DNA of 35,999 nt. It comes from Polyangia bacterium (GTDB lineage: Bacteria; Myxococcota_A; Polyangia; Polyangiales; Sandaracinaceae). The notes below the pieces were generated by a model. That model did no database searches. It had not been told where the DNA came from and saw only the letters and a list, made by a program, of their open reading frames with translations. A program made the position numbers and the translations under genes. Below are positions 1 to 8,767 of the stretch, piece after piece (position 1 is the stretch's first letter; each line of letters opens with the position of its first letter). The stretch is taken from positions 1 to 35,999 of the forward strand of contig JAUHXR010000056.1 in assembly GCA_030426845.1 (NCBI GenBank), in the 5' to 3' direction.

Positions 1-172
1 TGAGCGGCTGCGCGTCCTTGTACTCCGCGCGGAGCGCCATGAGGCCGGGCATCTCGTTCTCCGCCATGCGGATCTCTTTGCGGCCCCAGTCGACCATACG
101 GTCCGACATGTCGGCGACCTTGTAGGGGACCTTGCCCGTCTTGTTGGCGTCACTCACGGTCTGGGTTTCCAT
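1..172 (-). CDS. ahcY: adenosylhomocysteinase, N-terminal part (cut by left edge)
   Basis: S-adenosylhomocysteine hydrolase splits SAH into adenosine and homocysteine, relieving product inhibition of methyltransferases. Only about the first 57 codons are in the window. The ATG is at 172-170. After a short polar leader come the hallmark N-terminal residues of the family: [17 protein letters not shown] and then a stretch containing [12 protein letters not shown]. The NAD- and substrate-binding parts lie outside. The gene starts 3 nt after the stop of the ArsR-methyltransferase gene, so the two are almost certainly co-transcribed. That supports a SAM-cycle role for the regulator. Confidence 0.93.
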
Positions 173-175
173 CGA

Positions 176-1153
176 TCATTCTCCGTTTCTCGTGCGCGCC
201 GCGAGGACCTGCCAGTCGAGGTGGCCGTCGGGGCCCTCCCCGCACCGCGCGGATGGGATGAAGCTCACTGTCGGTTCGACGAGGCCCGCGCCGCGCGCGA
301 GGTCCTCGAGCTCGGCCTCCGTGAAGCCGAGCCAAAGATCCGCCTGCTCTCGCATACGCTCGTCCTGATGGCTTGCGTAGTCGATGACGATCACCGCGCC
401 GCCCGGGCGCGCGAGCGCCGAGAGGGAGCGCAGCGCGTCGGCCGGCTTGGGCGCGTGGTGGAGCACGCGTGAGGCGAACACCGCGTCGGCGCCGCCGAGC
501 TCGACGACCCGATCGCGCAGCGCCGGATCCTCGAGCTCACCCGCCCGCAGCTCGACGTTGGCGTAGCGGCGCGCGGCGAGGCGGCGGCGCGCGCGCTCGA
601 GCTGCGGCGCGGCGCGATCGATCGCGAGGACGGTGTCGAAGATCGGCGCGAGCACCTCGAGGAGCGCACCGTCGCCCGTCCCCGCGTCGACCGCGAGGCG
701 GCGCGGTGAGATCAGCGGGGCGAGCGCGCCCAGGTAAGCCACCGGGAACGGGCCGCCCGGCTCCGCCTCGGCCGGCTCGCGGGCGAAGAACTCACGCGCC
801 GCCGCGTCGCGCGCGTCGATCATCCGGGGGATCGCGGCGAGGCTTCCGTCGGCCTCGCAGAGCGCGCGGCCCGCGTCGAGCGCGTCGCCGACCACCGGGT
901 CGCTCGCGACCCCGTTGTTGAGCTGGAGCAGCGCCCAGCGCCCCTGCTTGCGCAGCCGCAGGAGGCCAGCCTCACGCAGCGTCTTGGCGTGCTTGCTCAC
1001 CTTGGGCTGGCTCTCGCCGAGGAGCTCGGCCAGCTCGCCGATCGCGAGCTCTTCGGCGCTCGCGAGCGCGAGCAGCCGCAGCCGCACGGGCTCCCCCAGG
1101 AGCCGGTAGAGCTCCCAGCGGCGCGACGCGGGCGTGTGGGCAACGACGTCCAC
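176..1153 (-). CDS. ArsR-family regulator fused to a SAM-methyltransferase domain (SahR-like)
   Basis: 325 aa. Residues ~10-80 form an ArsR winged helix: RRWELYRLLGEPVRLRLL, then the recognition region ELLGESQPKVSKHAKTL. Residues ~130-320 are a class I SAM-methyltransferase fold, with motif I LAVDAGTGDG and then DTVLAID. The GTG start at 1153 is chosen because it gives a correct ArsR N-terminus and lies 6 nt from a -10-like hexamer. Known context: SahR proteins are ArsR-family, SAH-responsive regulators of SAM-cycle genes in Proteobacteria. Inference: the methyltransferase domain here is a SAM/SAH sensor rather than, or as well as, an enzyme, and the protein controls itself and ahcY 3 nt downstream. 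The alternative is a true methyltransferase of unknown substrate. Confidence 0.88.
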   Translation of the reverse strand: MDVVAHTPASRRWELYRLLGEPVRLRLLALASAEELAIGELAELLGESQPKVSKHAKTLREAGLLRLRKQGRWALLQLNNGVASDPVVGDALDAGRALCEADGSLAAIPRMIDARDAAAREFFAREPAEAEPGGPFPVAYLGALAPLISPRRLAVDAGTGDGALLEVLAPIFDTVLAIDRAAPQLERARRRLAARRYANVELRAGELEDPALRDRVVELGGADAVFASRVLHHAPKPADALRSLSALARPGGAVIVIDYASHQDERMREQADLWLGFTEAELEDLARGAGLVEPTVSFIPSARCGEGPDGHLDWQVLAARTRNGE

Positions 1154-1159
1154 AACCTC

Positions 1160-1188
1160 GATGTATGCCTATATTCGCATGAGTGCAA
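1160..1188 (-). promoter_or_regulatory. sigma-70-like promoter with ArsR-type operator in the spacer
   Basis: On the minus strand TTGCAC (1188-1183) is followed by a 17-nt spacer and TACATC (1165-1160), which ends 6 nt before the GTG at 1153. The spacer contains an imperfect palindrome at 1165-1180 of form ATGCnnATATnnGCAT, symmetric at 12 of 16 positions. A repressor bound there would block RNA polymerase. The -35/-10 assignment is by eye. Confidence 0.6.
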
Positions 1189-1227
1189 GCGTTGGCCCTC
1201 GGATTCGCAAAACCTCTACGATCTCGA

Positions 1228-1233
1228 TACGCT
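1228..1233 (+). promoter_or_regulatory. -10-like TACGCT, leaderless geometry
   Basis: TACGCT ends 8 nt before the GTG at 1242. A weak TTCGCA lies 18 nt upstream (1204-1209). The spacing predicts transcription starting at or next to the start codon, and it supports GTG 1242 over the in-frame ATG at 1179. Confidence 0.45.
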
Positions 1234-1241
1234 GCGGCCCG

Positions 1242-1760
1242 GTGAGCGAGCGGATCGCGTGTGAGGCCTGTGGCGGTGCGATCGATCCGCGGCCCGCGGT
1301 GTGCCCCCTGTGCGGCCACGCGCGGCGACCTCGGGCGACCGTCTCGCCCACCTCGCTGGAGACGCCGAGCGAGGACTCGGTACGGCCGCTGCTGCCGCGG
1401 TTTGAGACGCGCCCAGCCGCGATCCCGGTCCACGGCCCGATCGACGCGCTGCGGGCCGCGCTCGTCCCCGCGCCGCACACCCGCGGCTGGATGCGCTTCG
1501 TCGAGCTCGCCCTCACCCCCTTCGCCTCGCCGGTCTTCCTCGCGGCGACGCCGGTGCTCGCGCTCGTGGTGCGGCGATGGACCCGCCCCGGCCCCGGCGC
1601 GTGGCTGGCGGGCGCGGCGGTCGCGACGGCGGGGTGGATCGCGGTCGAGCGCGGCCTCGGGCTCGACGAGGTCCTCTCCCTCAAGCTGATGCTCGTCGCG
1701 CTCGGCGCCTGGGCGCTGCGCTCGGTCGTCCGGGCGCTGTCGGCGCGGCGCGACGCGTGA
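1242..1760 (+). CDS. small zinc-ribbon membrane protein, function unknown
   Basis: 172 aa from GTG 1242. The N-terminus carries two CxxC pairs (CEAC and, after 11 residues, CPLC), a typical single zinc ribbon. A polar linker follows (~25-75), and then hydrophobic segments at about 85-108, 112-128 and 138-158 that look like three membrane helices. I do not recognise a named family. An in-frame ATG at 1179 would add 21 residues upstream of the ribbon, but the -10-like hexamer at 1228 argues for GTG 1242. The gene is divergent from the ArsR-methyltransferase and is followed after 43 nt by another zinc-ribbon gene, possibly in the same transcript. Confidence 0.7.
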   Translation: MSERIACEACGGAIDPRPAVCPLCGHARRPRATVSPTSLETPSEDSVRPLLPRFETRPAAIPVHGPIDALRAALVPAPHTRGWMRFVELALTPFASPVFLAATPVLALVVRRWTRPGPGAWLAGAAVATAGWIAVERGLGLDEVLSLKLMLVALGAWALRSVVRALSARRDA

Positions 1761-1803
1761 CGGGCCTTTACTTCGCCGGCGACCGCGCGATCATGGGCGC
1801 CCG

Positions 1804-2253
1804 ATGGAGTGCCCCCGCTGCCGGTCCCCGTTCGTCGACGGTCAGATTCGCGGGCGCGGCGGCGCCTACCGCGGCTCCTACGTCCGGGTCCTCCGCTGCG
1901 ATCGCTGCAAGCTCTCGGCGCTCGACGTGAGCGCGATCGCGAACCGCCATGGGAGCTCGCACGTCCGGTTGTCGGCCACCCTCCTCTGCCGCGACCGCAA
2001 GCCGGCCGACATGCACTGCGCGAGCTGCATGCGCGGCCTGGACCTCGTGACGCTCTCGTGGGGAGCCACCTACATCGAGCTCGAGGAGTGCGCGGGCTGC
2101 GGCCTGGTCTACCTGGACCCTGGCGAGCTCGAGCGCATGGGCGGCCTCCTCCGCGTCGCCGAGCGCGCGCCCGAGAAGCTCGCCTGGGACACCGAAGACG
2201 AGACGATGGGCCAGACCCTCGACTGGCTGGACGAGCTCTTCGGCGAGCTCTGA
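1804..2253 (+). CDS. zf-TFIIB-like zinc-ribbon protein
   Basis: 149 aa, cytoplasmic, with no signal or membrane segment. It has four CxxC knuckles: CPRC at the N-terminus, CDRC, CASC and CAGC. The last is followed by GLVYLDPGELERM, which matches the end of the zf-TFIIB family (CxxCxGxWLDxGEL). The protein therefore looks like two degenerate ribbons. The first ribbon has a non-standard middle with several Arg/Tyr residues (GRGGAYRGSYVRVLRC). The role is unknown; members are small proteins of uncharacterised, possibly nucleic-acid-related, function. The TGA stop is the first base triplet of the 14-bp tandem repeat that follows. Confidence 0.8.
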   Translation: MECPRCRSPFVDGQIRGRGGAYRGSYVRVLRCDRCKLSALDVSAIANRHGSSHVRLSATLLCRDRKPADMHCASCMRGLDLVTLSWGATYIELEECAGCGLVYLDPGELERMGGLLRVAERAPEKLAWDTEDETMGQTLDWLDELFGEL

Positions 2254-2348
2254 GCCGCGAGCCCTGAGCCGCGAGCCCTGAGCCGCGAGCCCTGAGCCGC
2301 GAGCCCTGAGCCGCGAGCTCTGAGCCGCGAGCTCTGAGCCGCGAGCTC
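2251..2348 (+). repeat. 14-bp minisatellite, seven copies, starting at a stop codon
   Basis: The unit TGAGCCGCGAGCCC is repeated without gaps from 2251. Four copies end in GCCC, then three copies end in GCTC. The first TGA is the stop codon of the zinc-ribbon gene. In the GCTC copies, GAGC-CGCGA-GCTC can pair as a small hairpin. Fourteen is not a multiple of three, so the array does not code in one frame. It fills most of the gap before the convergent sulfatase-like gene. Confidence 0.97.
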
Positions 2349-2373
2349 GAATCCATGAGCCCGGCCGTGCGAC

Positions 2374-4521
2374 TCAGCGCGCGGGCTGCACCGCGTAGGC
2401 CTCGTAGGACTCGAGGCGCTCGGCGAGGCGCGCCCGGTCGGCGGCTCGCGCGCTCGACAGGTCGTCCTCCTCCTCGGGGTCCTCGGCGACGTCGTAGAGC
2501 GCGGTGACGTTGGTGCGCACGTCGCGGATCAGCTTGAGCGGCCACTCGACGATCGCGCTCGCTTGCTGGTGGACGTTGCCGCGCCAGAGGTCGGTGAACA
2601 TGAACAGCGAGCGCGCCGGGACGTCGTCGCCGAGCTGCGCGAGGAGGCTCCACCCGTCGTCGGCGCGCGGGGGGAGGCCCGCGACGTCGAGGACGGTCGG
2701 CGCCAGATCGGTCAGGAGCACCGGCGCCTCGACCCGGCGCGGCGCGACGCCTGGGATCCGCGCCGCGAGGAGGACGCGCACGTCGTTCTCGAACAGCGAG
2801 TTGCCGTGGTTGGTGAGCCCGTGCTCGCCGAACATCTCGCCGTGGTCGGAGAAGATCACGACGGTGGTCCTCGCGCGGTCGTCGCGCGCGTCGAGCCCGT
2901 CGAGGAGGCGCCCGATCTCGCGGTCGCAGTAGCTGAGCGCGCTGTCGTAGCGGTCGACCTCCGCGTCGCCGTAGGGGAACTCGTCGTACGCGATGTAGGG
3001 GTCGTGGGTGCAGCGGTAGTGGGCGAAGAGGAGGTACGGGCGCGCCGCGGTGTCGCCGACCGATGCGAGGTAGGCGAGGCTCGCGTCGGTCGTCCGCTCG
3101 GCCGCGACCGGGTAATTGGCGAGCCAGTCGTCGACCGGCCACGGGGTGACCCAGCGCGCGAAGCCCTGGCCCAGCCCCTGGTTGTGCTGGACGACGTAGG
3201 TGATGGTGTAGCCCATCGTCTGGTAGCCCGCGCGCGTCAGGATTTCGGCGATCGTCTCCGCCTCCGGGCGCATGCGGTAGCGGTTGCCCCCGAGGTCGTC
3301 GTGCGGGACGCGGCGCGGGTCGCGCCCGGTGAACATCGCGCTCATCGCGAAGCGCGTGCTCGGCGCCGGCGTGTAGGCCCGGTCGAACCACGCCGCCTCG
3401 GCGAAGAAGCGGTCCAGGCGCGGGGTCGTCTCACGCTCGTAGCCCGCGAAGGAGAGGTGATCGGGGCGCAGCGCGTCCATCTGGATCAGCACGACGTTCT
3501 GACGGCGCGGCACGCCCTCGGCGCGCGCGCGAGGCGCGGGCGGCGGCGCGTACCGCTGGGCGTCGGCGCCGGTGCAGTTCTCGTCGATCCCGTTGCCGGG
3601 CACGTCCTCCGCCCCCGGGTGGCGCGCGGGGTCGGCGTCGTCGCAGTCACCGCCGAGCAGGATCGCGGCGTAGCCGTCCCCGTCGGCGTCGGACGCCTTC
3701 GCGGCGGCCGCGAGGAGGTTGCCGGCCCAGGGCGATCGATAGAGCAAGGCGCTCTGCGCCGCGGACGGCAGGGCGTCGGCGAAGACCAGCGGCGCGGCGC
3801 TGACGAGGGTCGCGGCGGCGAGCGCGGCCGGTCCCCGCCAGCCTCGGGCGGCGCGCGCCATGCGCTGCGCGCGCGCCGCGAGGCCGAGGCCGAACCCGAG
3901 CGCGAACGCGGTCGGCGCGAAGGCCCAGGCGACGGGGAGCGTCGCGAGGGTGACCGCGAGCGCGGCGACAGCGACGACCCCGACGAGCGCCCAGCGCGCG
4001 CCGGCCGAGCGCCCGCGCGCCCCGAGGCGCCCTCCGATCGCGCGCGCCGCGGGGGCCACCGCGAGGCCGAAGAGCGCGACGCCGACCCCGGTCACCGCGG
4101 CGGTGCCGCCGGCCGCGAAGCGCGCGGTCATCATCGCCCCGAGCCGCGCGCCGACCACCGCGCCGAGCCCGACGCCAAGGCCGAGCGCGGTGAGGACGGC
4201 GGCCGTGGCGAGCGCGGGGCGGCCCCCGAGGGCGTCGGTGAGCCCGCGCCCGAGCGCGCGCGCGGCCTCCCGATCGGCGAGCCACCCCACGAGCGCGAGG
4301 GGCACCGCGGCGGCGACGACGATCGTGGCGGACGCCGCGAGGAGCGCCGCCGCGCCCGCGACCGCGCCGCCGCCCGAGTCCAGCGCGCCCACCGCCGCGA
4401 CGCCGCCCTCGGCGAGCGCGGCCGCGAGGAGCCCGCTCGTGATCGGCGCGAGGGCGGAGCTCGACTCTGACGTCGGCGCGGGCAAGGCGGGGTTGTACCA
4501 AGCGGCTCCGCTCGGTGACAA
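2374..4521 (-). CDS. membrane-anchored sulfatase-like (alkaline phosphatase superfamily) protein with MopE motif
   Basis: 715 aa. The first ~255 residues are Ala-rich and hydrophobic with several probable membrane helices. Residues ~275-318 hold a MopE-type motif: DADGDGY, then GGDCDDADP, PGAED and ENCTG. The catalytic domain (~340-700) has the sulfatase-fold start QMDALRPDHLSF and the metal site FSDHGEMFGEHG. The usual Cys/Ser that is matured to formylglycine is not seen: the aligned region reads PSTRFAMSAMFTG, placing a Thr (or adjacent Ser) at the nucleophile position, as in LtaS/EptA-like phosphotransferases. A phospho- or sulfo-group hydrolase or transferase acting outside the membrane is likely; the substrate is unknown. 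The start is uncertain: the longest frame begins with TTG at 4521 without a clear ribosome-binding site. Confidence 0.82.
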   Translation of the reverse strand: MSPSGAAWYNPALPAPTSESSSALAPITSGLLAAALAEGGVAAVGALDSGGGAVAGAAALLAASATIVVAAAVPLALVGWLADREAARALGRGLTDALGGRPALATAAVLTALGLGVGLGAVVGARLGAMMTARFAAGGTAAVTGVGVALFGLAVAPAARAIGGRLGARGRSAGARWALVGVVAVAALAVTLATLPVAWAFAPTAFALGFGLGLAARAQRMARAARGWRGPAALAAATLVSAAPLVFADALPSAAQSALLYRSPWAGNLLAAAAKASDADGDGYAAILLGGDCDDADPARHPGAEDVPGNGIDENCTGADAQRYAPPPAPRARAEGVPRRQNVVLIQMDALRPDHLSFAGYERETTPRLDRFFAEAAWFDRAYTPAPSTRFAMSAMFTGRDPRRVPHDDLGGNRYRMRPEAETIAEILTRAGYQTMGYTITYVVQHNQGLGQGFARWVTPWPVDDWLANYPVAAERTTDASLAYLASVGDTAARPYLLFAHYRCTHDPYIAYDEFPYGDAEVDRYDSALSYCDREIGRLLDGLDARDDRARTTVVIFSDHGEMFGEHGLTNHGNSLFENDVRVLLAARIPGVAPRRVEAPVLLTDLAPTVLDVAGLPPRADDGWSLLAQLGDDVPARSLFMFTDLWRGNVHQQASAIVEWPLKLIRDVRTNVTALYDVAEDPEEEDDLSSARAADRARLAERLESYEAYAVQPAR

Positions 4522-6421: not shown

Positions 6422-7027
6422 TCACGCGTGGCGCTTCCCGACCGGGTCCCCGTCGAGCGCGCGCGCTACGAACTGCAAGCGGTCCTGCCCCCAGTAGAGC
6501 TCGTCGTCGACGATGAAGGTGGGCGCGCCGGGGACCCCGCGGGCGACCGCCTCGTCGGTCGCGGCCTTGAGCTGCGCCTTCACCTCGGGCTCCTGCGTGC
6601 GCTCGAGCAGCGCGGGGTCGAGCCCGACATCCGCGAGGCAGCGCGCGAGCACCGCCGGGTCCTTCACGTCCTCGTCGTCCACCCACGCGGCGCGCATGAC
6701 GCGGTGCACGAGGCGCGGGTCGTCGGCGACGAGCGCGAGCCGGAGCGCGGTGATCGTGTGGAGCGGGAAGTGGCTGTTCCACCGCAGCTCGACGCCCCAC
6801 CAGTCCGACCAGCGATCGAGCTCGCGCGCGGCGTGGGCCCGCTTGGGCTCGGGGAACGCGGCCATCGGGACGAGCGGCGTACCGATCTCGGTGAACAGCC
6901 CGCCGAGGAAGAACGGCCGCCAGCGGACCTCGCCGCCGTGCTCGGCCGCCACGCGCTCGATCTGGGTGGTGCCCAGGTACGCGAAGGGCGAAGAGAAGTC
7001 GTACCAGCACTCGACGATTCGGCTCAT
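6422..7027 (-). CDS. DsbA-like / 2-hydroxychromene-2-carboxylate isomerase family protein
   Basis: 201 aa, cytoplasmic. The N-terminus CWYDFSSPFAYLG is the signature of the HCCA isomerase/GST-kappa branch of the DsbA fold, with Ser13 in place of a CxxC pair. A cis-Pro motif GVPGAPTFIVDDELYWGQDRL-type region lies near the C-terminus. Known relatives isomerise 2-hydroxychromene-2-carboxylate with glutathione in naphthalene breakdown, or act as GST-kappa enzymes. A GGGAG ribosome-binding site lies ~7 nt before the ATG. It is divergent from boxC across a 102-nt gap, which suggests but does not prove a role in aromatic catabolism. Confidence 0.85.
   Translation of the reverse strand: MSRIVECWYDFSSPFAYLGTTQIERVAAEHGGEVRWRPFFLGGLFTEIGTPLVPMAAFPEPKRAHAARELDRWSDWWGVELRWNSHFPLHTITALRLALVADDPRLVHRVMRAAWVDDEDVKDPAVLARCLADVGLDPALLERTQEPEVKAQLKAATDEAVARGVPGAPTFIVDDELYWGQDRLQFVARALDGDPVGKRHA

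Positions 7028-7129: not shown

Positions 7130-8767
<1,638 letters not shown>

Follow-up and report, generated by a model that had tools for sequence, protein, structure and literature searches.

The conserved unit upstream of the sahR-like gene is a 24-bp palindrome with the consensus TTGC-N4-ATGCGCAT-N4-GCAT, which extends from the −35 hexamer into the −10 hexamer of the gene's own promoter. At the sequence level, the SahR-like reading of this locus was well supported, and the element is quite probably the promoter-operator through which a SahR-type repressor regulates its own gene.

The window, i.e., the whole stretch of DNA analyzed, is 35,999 bases long and corresponded to one entire contig (C101). 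The genome it belongs to, designated G000 (9.40 Mb, 538 contigs), is that of a bacterium of the myxobacterial phylum. The coordinates of the relevant features are summarized in Table 1.

Table 1. Features of the sahR-like locus in the window and of the second regulator gene in the same genome.
Feature	Position	Strand	Basis or remark
ahcY (adenosylhomocysteinase), 5' end, cut at contig end	2..169	-	PF05221 (E 4e-12), TIGR00936 (E 3.5e-8)
sahR-like gene, 325 aa	176..1153	-	PF01022, PF08242 and other methyltransferase profiles
GTG start codon, 6 nt past −10	1151..1153	-	sequence reading
−10 hexamer TACATC	1160..1165	-	17-nt spacing to −35 kept ungapped
16-bp palindrome ATGCGAATATAGGCAT, operator positions 9-24	1165..1180 (read 1180-1165)	-	
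24-bp palindromic operator TTGC-ACTC-ATGCGAAT-ATAG-GCAT	1165..1188	-	conserved ungapped across orthologue promoters
−35 hexamer TTGCAC, doubling as outer left half-site TTGC	1183..1188	-	aligned promoters
metH-linked ArsR-methyltransferase (L080)	G000:C221:1281-2096		directly before metH

Several other features of the window were recorded. A 14-bp unit (GCGAGCCCTGAGCC) is repeated 7.4 times at positions 2243–2346, in an array that overlaps the end of a gene of the zinc-ribbon-like kind. On the minus strand, positions 2374–4521 encode a sulfatase-domain protein with a membrane-like N-terminus and a MopE-type metal-binding repeat, and positions 6422–7027 a DSBA-like protein. The latter is divergent from a 545-aa protein of the enoyl-CoA-hydratase family (7130–8767, plus strand), which presumably resembles BoxC.

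The Promoter and Its Conserved Operator

Direct reading of the minus strand from position 1200 to 1130 gave a region containing gcTTGCACtcATGCGAATATAGGCATACATCgaggttGTG. An earlier note on this DNA had placed a palindrome inside the spacer between TTGCAC and TACATC. The palindrome was found to be real and the spacer to be 17 nt long; however, base 1165 is both the last base of the palindrome and the first of the −10 hexamer, and the palindrome therefore does not lie strictly within the spacer. In the window, the 16-bp palindrome gave a single, exact match, compared with 0.09 expected from shuffles with up to two mismatches. At the same tolerance, 12 places were found in the 9.40-Mb genome and 5 with the reversed-pattern control, the window palindrome being the sole match with fewer than two mismatches.

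The −10 hexamer of the window matches the consensus at three of six bases, so that the promoter is weak on its own, and a strict sigma-70 consensus scan found nothing at this promoter. Most relatives carry TATATA or TATAGA at this place (65 aligned promoters). A divergent zinc-finger-like open reading frame (positions 1134–1760, plus strand) has the intergenic region in common with the operator and could be affected by it.

Conservation was evaluated on upstream regions gathered by protein and not by motif. From 68 orthologue loci (L011–L078), L078 (G085, 41% identity, weak site) and L075 (no upstream sequence) were dropped, leaving 66 upstream regions. By the earlier note, a lack of conservation in related promoters would have refuted its reading. 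The motif proved to be part of a larger conserved element: the same 27-bp block recurred, without gaps, in 65 of the 66 promoters scored. The remaining promoter (L059) carries a weaker element with 9 of 12 scaffold positions, which was overlooked at the script's edge.

Across the 65 promoters, the counts were T1 65, T2 65, G3 65, C4 64, A9 60, T10 65, C12 59, G13 61, A15 65, T16 54, G21 62, A23 65, T24 64, A25 63, and A27 62. Spacer positions A9, T10, C12, G13, A15, G21, and A23 were invariant or nearly so, and the flanks were unconserved. Little information was carried by positions 17–20 and 30–35; positions 11 and 14 varied, strict pairing being absent. Position 1 is T instead of A because the −35 hexamer requires T. 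Two details of the first description had to be revised accordingly: the conserved unit is not the 16-bp palindrome but the 24-bp one including the −35 hexamer, and the central ATAT (positions 15–18) is conserved in the 65 promoters at its first two bases alone.

Of 100 upstream regions of the ahcY-linked type (A type), some of which had been gathered by motif, 97 matched 13 or more of the 15 core positions, compared with 3 of 20,000 Markov-resampled upstream regions; L059, L075, and L076 fell below the threshold. Conservation in the orthologues places the palindrome far beyond chance. A self-regulating operator, as originally suggested, thus gains support from a conserved palindrome over the gene's own promoter.

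Among 98 A-type loci, 89 have their first in-frame start codon 5–10 nt past the −10 hexamer, and in 63 the distance is 6 or 7 nt. By chance, about 9% would carry a start codon at either of two in-frame positions. Since the start codon follows the −10 hexamer so closely, the sahR-like mRNA is probably leaderless. A literature search on this leaderless arrangement found nothing relevant.

Genomic Distribution of the Site

Orthologues of the sahR-like gene were detected in 68 of 96 order-level genomes, the own genome included, mostly with 46–75% identity. When the 27-bp pattern was searched with up to three mismatches in the own genome, one site was found, that of the window, and the reversed control likewise gave one match. 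With at most one mismatch, 137 of 289 class genomes contained a site, compared with 4 containing a reversed-pattern match. Out of 67 sites in genomes G000–G095, 60 were located upstream of the sahR-like gene on its strand and 7 elsewhere. By a count made by eye, 62 of the 65 genomes carrying the gene had the site, compared with 2 of the 28 lacking it (Fisher p ~2e-17, related genomes not being independent). Most gene-bearing genomes had one strong site, located at the sahR-like gene.

Additional strong sites were inspected in 20 regions, with gene names assigned by eye. In G358 (L214) and G364 (L216), a second strong site precedes a gene for a stand-alone class I methyltransferase, whose domain was confirmed, and in G304 a strong site precedes a gene that appears to encode a glyceraldehyde-phosphate-dehydrogenase-like protein. 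None of the other unlinked sites in these regions was closely followed by a clear gene start, and they were regarded as chance occurrences. A one-mismatch site in G086 (L217, G086:C46:22113) lies before a gene named by eye as CoA-lyase-like, followed by a cystathionine-synthase-like gene.

A pattern scan of named genomes yielded 119 stretches, of which 80 were examined as listed. Among these 80 of 119 matches, at least 26 were Myxococcota loci with the sahR-like gene, from genera such as Sorangium, Polyangium, and Labilithrix. At five loci from other groups (L302, L305, L312, L315, L316), the site adjoined the gene for a more remotely related ArsR-methyltransferase or for the HTH portion of one. 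Of the remaining listed matches, 22 were inspected by eye, and 12 of these had an ArsR-family gene without a methyltransferase domain at the site. In Alphaproteobacteria, the scaffold TTGC-N4-ATnCGnAT-N4-GnATATA occupies the promoter spacer beside ArsR-type genes. Because ArsR-family regulators of other kinds share this scaffold, it does not by itself identify SahR. It is general to ArsR-type operators, and it is the letters together with the gene that make the window site a predicted SahR-like one.

Two loci with other arrangements were also recorded. In bacterium RI_285 (L305), the operator is flanked on one side by a divergent ArsR-methyltransferase gene and on the other by metK-ahcY. In plasmid p1 of Leptospira interrogans (L235), ArsR-methyltransferase, ahcY, and metH are grouped together, and upstream of them lies a 24-bp palindrome that is perfect and spelled in other letters.

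The Predicted Sensor Protein and Its Linkage to ahcY

The sahR-like protein consists of an ArsR winged HTH (residues ~9–78), linker helices, and a class I SAM/SAH-binding methyltransferase fold (residues ~135–323). Its AF2 model reached a pLDDT of 86.7, and the C-terminal fold gave Foldseek matches to SAM- and SAH-bound methyltransferases, with VIA-align Z values of about 19–21. The initial assignment of an ArsR DNA-binding domain joined to a SAM/SAH-binding fold was thus borne out by profiles, model, and structure matches alike. The SAM-binding motif D156-x-G158-x-G160-x-G162 was invariant in 23 of 23 proteins.

The ahcY gene is situated directly downstream in the same direction, and it follows the regulator gene in nearly all loci with enough downstream DNA. 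The proposed adjacency to ahcY was confirmed both by the profile matches in the window (Table 1) and by this linkage in relatives.

These features also bear on two other conceivable functions of the protein. The SAM-binding residues are intact, as would be expected if the C-terminal domain were a working methyltransferase, with an operator that merely autoregulates and sensing through the substrate or some other molecule; this is considered very unlikely, given the fusion of the domain to a DNA-binding domain and its linkage to ahcY across families. A metal- or arsenic-sensing regulator is suggested by NCBIfam, which names the HTH 'metalloregulator ArsR/SmtB'. Metal sensing was rejected because the cysteine metal site is missing from the HTH: the only cysteines, 99 and 304, both lie outside it, leaving no CxC there. 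The neighboring gene is moreover ahcY and not an ars gene, and practically no weight is given to this function.

A Second ArsR-Methyltransferase and a Possible Recognition Code

The own genome encodes a second ArsR-methyltransferase (Table 1), 34% identical to the window protein. Of 23 genomes examined, 13 had such a paralogue, deeply separate from the ahcY-linked type, immediately in front of metH, and 12 of these 13 also had the ahcY-linked gene. Its operator, ATCC-N4-ATCCGGAT-N4-GGAT (ATCC-N4-ATCnnGAT-N4-GGAT), is likewise 24 bp long and has the same geometry with different half-sites. In most cases a TTGAC-type −35 precedes this operator, which overlaps the start codon or sits near it.

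Sites of the ahcY-linked operator (A) scored at most 16.9 on the matrix of the metH-linked operator (B), and B sites at most 0.7 on the A matrix, the true minima being 25.4 and 21.6, respectively. These cross-scores fall below the true range. The two operators are distinct, and the two paralogues would be insulated from each other. In a tree of 61 proteins, the ahcY-linked and metH-linked types each formed a clade with 100/100 support, and the two may or may not be sister clades.

The relation between protein and operator was analyzed with all specificity positions masked, and 100 full mask matches were obtained. The residue in question is the third letter of the Q-P/S-x motif opening the recognition helix (residue 51 in the window protein, K). 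Where it was N, K, Q, S, or G, operator position 22 was a base other than G in 79 of 79 cases; with R it was G in 16 of 16, and with T in 4 of 5. The clades entering this correlation are not independent, at least one of the R rows, L235, has a differently built operator that may match the mask by accident, and six proteins without a matching helix pattern had been left out of an earlier residue/base count.

One independent co-change was observed inside the ahcY clade, in L047 (QPT with CGGAT), and ahcY-linked proteins of other phyla (L302, L312, L315) combine T with GGAT. Both point to more than simple clade history, whereas L066 (QPT with GCAT) contradicts this as a counter-example. A tentative model, given somewhat less than an even chance, is that the SAM cycle is split between the two ArsR-methyltransferase sensors by a one-residue/one-base code: N, K, or Q at residue 51 would read ATGC/GCAT at ahcY, and R (or T) would read ATCC/GGAT at metH, with the ahcY sensor acting in a leaderless, promoter-filling operator on essentially one operon. 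The correlation between residue 51 and base 22 would represent a short DNA-recognition code that lends itself to testing, and it illustrates a way in which two related sensors could divide one cycle without cross-talk.

The correlation is also relevant to whether the conserved block is an operator at all. Its two ends fall on the −35 and −10 hexamers, which have the standard 17-nt spacing, as they would in a strong sigma-70 promoter and nothing more. The spacer positions, however, are symmetric and conserved as much as the hexamers, position 22 changes its base in step with the recognition-helix residue from clade to clade, and other ArsR-family loci use the same scaffold, which makes a promoter without an operator extremely unlikely.

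Search for a Wider Regulon

The earlier note had proposed looking for the motif upstream of further methionine-cycle genes. Position weight matrices of both operators were used to scan 330-nt upstream regions of metK, metF/bhmT-metF, and metH. No A or B site was found upstream of metK (0/21), upstream of metF (0/19), or directly before metH (0/25). The best scores were 2.6 (A) and 7.0 (B), whereas the sites from which the matrices had been built scored at least 21.6 and 25.4, respectively; a wider regulon was therefore rejected. The background quantiles of the scan were contaminated by true-site loci (99% quantile for A, 35.8) and were left unused. The metE gene is absent from the own genome and was present in only 3 of 23 genomes. 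A riboswitch was considered as the real regulator; none was found in window positions 1–2400 or in the metK, metH, metF, and par2 loci of the own genome. In this lineage, the ahcY-linked sensor appears to serve essentially the sahR-ahcY operon alone.

Proposed Mechanism

From these features we infer DNA binding, repression, and a role of SAH as the effector. A dimer of the ArsR-methyltransferase protein, or two dimers, would bind the 24-bp palindrome spanning the −35 to the −10 hexamer and block RNA polymerase, so that sahR and ahcY would be repressed together. Accumulating S-adenosylhomocysteine would bind the methyltransferase fold and cause the protein to leave the DNA. AhcY would then be made and hydrolyze SAH, and the falling SAH level would restore repression. 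The sensor would be dedicated to ahcY in this lineage, with metH under the second ArsR-methyltransferase. The promoter-filling operator with its adjacent start codon would constitute a small, complete candidate SAH switch.

Some points speak against this SahR-like reading: the −10 hexamer of the window is weak and was missed by the strict promoter scan, the wider SahR regulon is absent, the operator letters are unlike ATC-N10-GAT, and ArsR-family genes of other kinds in Alphaproteobacteria have the same scaffold.

The same repressor and operator could respond to SAM or to the SAM/SAH ratio instead of SAH alone, in a SamR-like manner. Methyltransferases with bound SAM and those with bound SAH are both similar to the fold, and SamR, which has a palindrome of the same 24-bp length, is suggested to be SAM-responsive in the excerpts of PMC4239095 drawn on here. 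Such an effector is nevertheless unlikely, as the sole conserved target, ahcY, consumes SAH, and metK, which makes SAM and is a SamR target, has no site.

Comparison with Known Systems

In the same excerpts of Leyn et al. (2014, PMC4239095), SahR is described as a SAH-responsive ArsR-family repressor of SAM-cycle genes in Desulfovibrio and other Proteobacteria, with a core regulon that also takes in metH, metF, and metK. Its motif is given as a 20-bp palindrome that differs between taxa, ATC-N10-GAT being common to gamma SahR and SamR; since the motif varies by taxon, ATC-N10-GAT is not strictly defining. SamR of Xanthomonadales appears there as a distant SahR homologue with a 24-bp palindrome and a gene adjoining metH. 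Work on Ensifer supports SahR autoregulation.

A 24-bp palindrome is thus common to SamR and the window gene, but the latter is ahcY-linked and has ATGC and not ATC half-sites. The metH-linked paralogue of the own genome, likened to SamR by features, fits better, with both a 24-bp palindrome and adjacency to metH.

Among other ArsR-type operators, those of the SqrR/BigR type in Alphaproteobacteria use the same promoter scaffold, with regulators lacking a methyltransferase domain. We take L238, L245, L250, L256, L306, and other alphaproteobacterial loci to be SqrR/BigR-like, with neighbors that by eye are of the sulfide-oxidation type. Operators of the SmtB/CzrA type have AT..-N8-..AT half-sites over 16 bp and a metal effector. 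This 16-bp half-site geometry is the same as in the window, whereas the half-site letters differ and the effector there is a metal.

With SahR itself, whose sensor domain is reportedly methylase-like, the window system has in common an ArsR HTH joined to such a domain, ahcY as linked gene and target, and a palindromic operator at its own promoter, i.e., predicted autoregulation. It differs in the operator, which contains ATG-N10-CAT in a 24-bp promoter-filling palindrome of the ATGC type, unlike the consensus described for SahR in the excerpts of PMC4239095, and in a regulon that is essentially sahR-ahcY, with no metH, metF, or metK sites. The suggestion of a SahR-kind regulator therefore held for the domains, the ahcY linkage, and the conserved own-promoter operator, and failed for the wider regulon and the 16-bp unit. 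Among the papers listed in literature searches, none dealt, to judge by the titles, with SahR in Myxococcota, which is not one of the groups named for SahR in the same excerpts. Since SahR-like domains, linkage, and autoregulation are combined with another operator code and a one-operon regulon, the window system may, on these features, be regarded as a lineage variant of the SahR kind. It would extend SAH-type repression to a group beyond those named for SahR in this part of PMC4239095.
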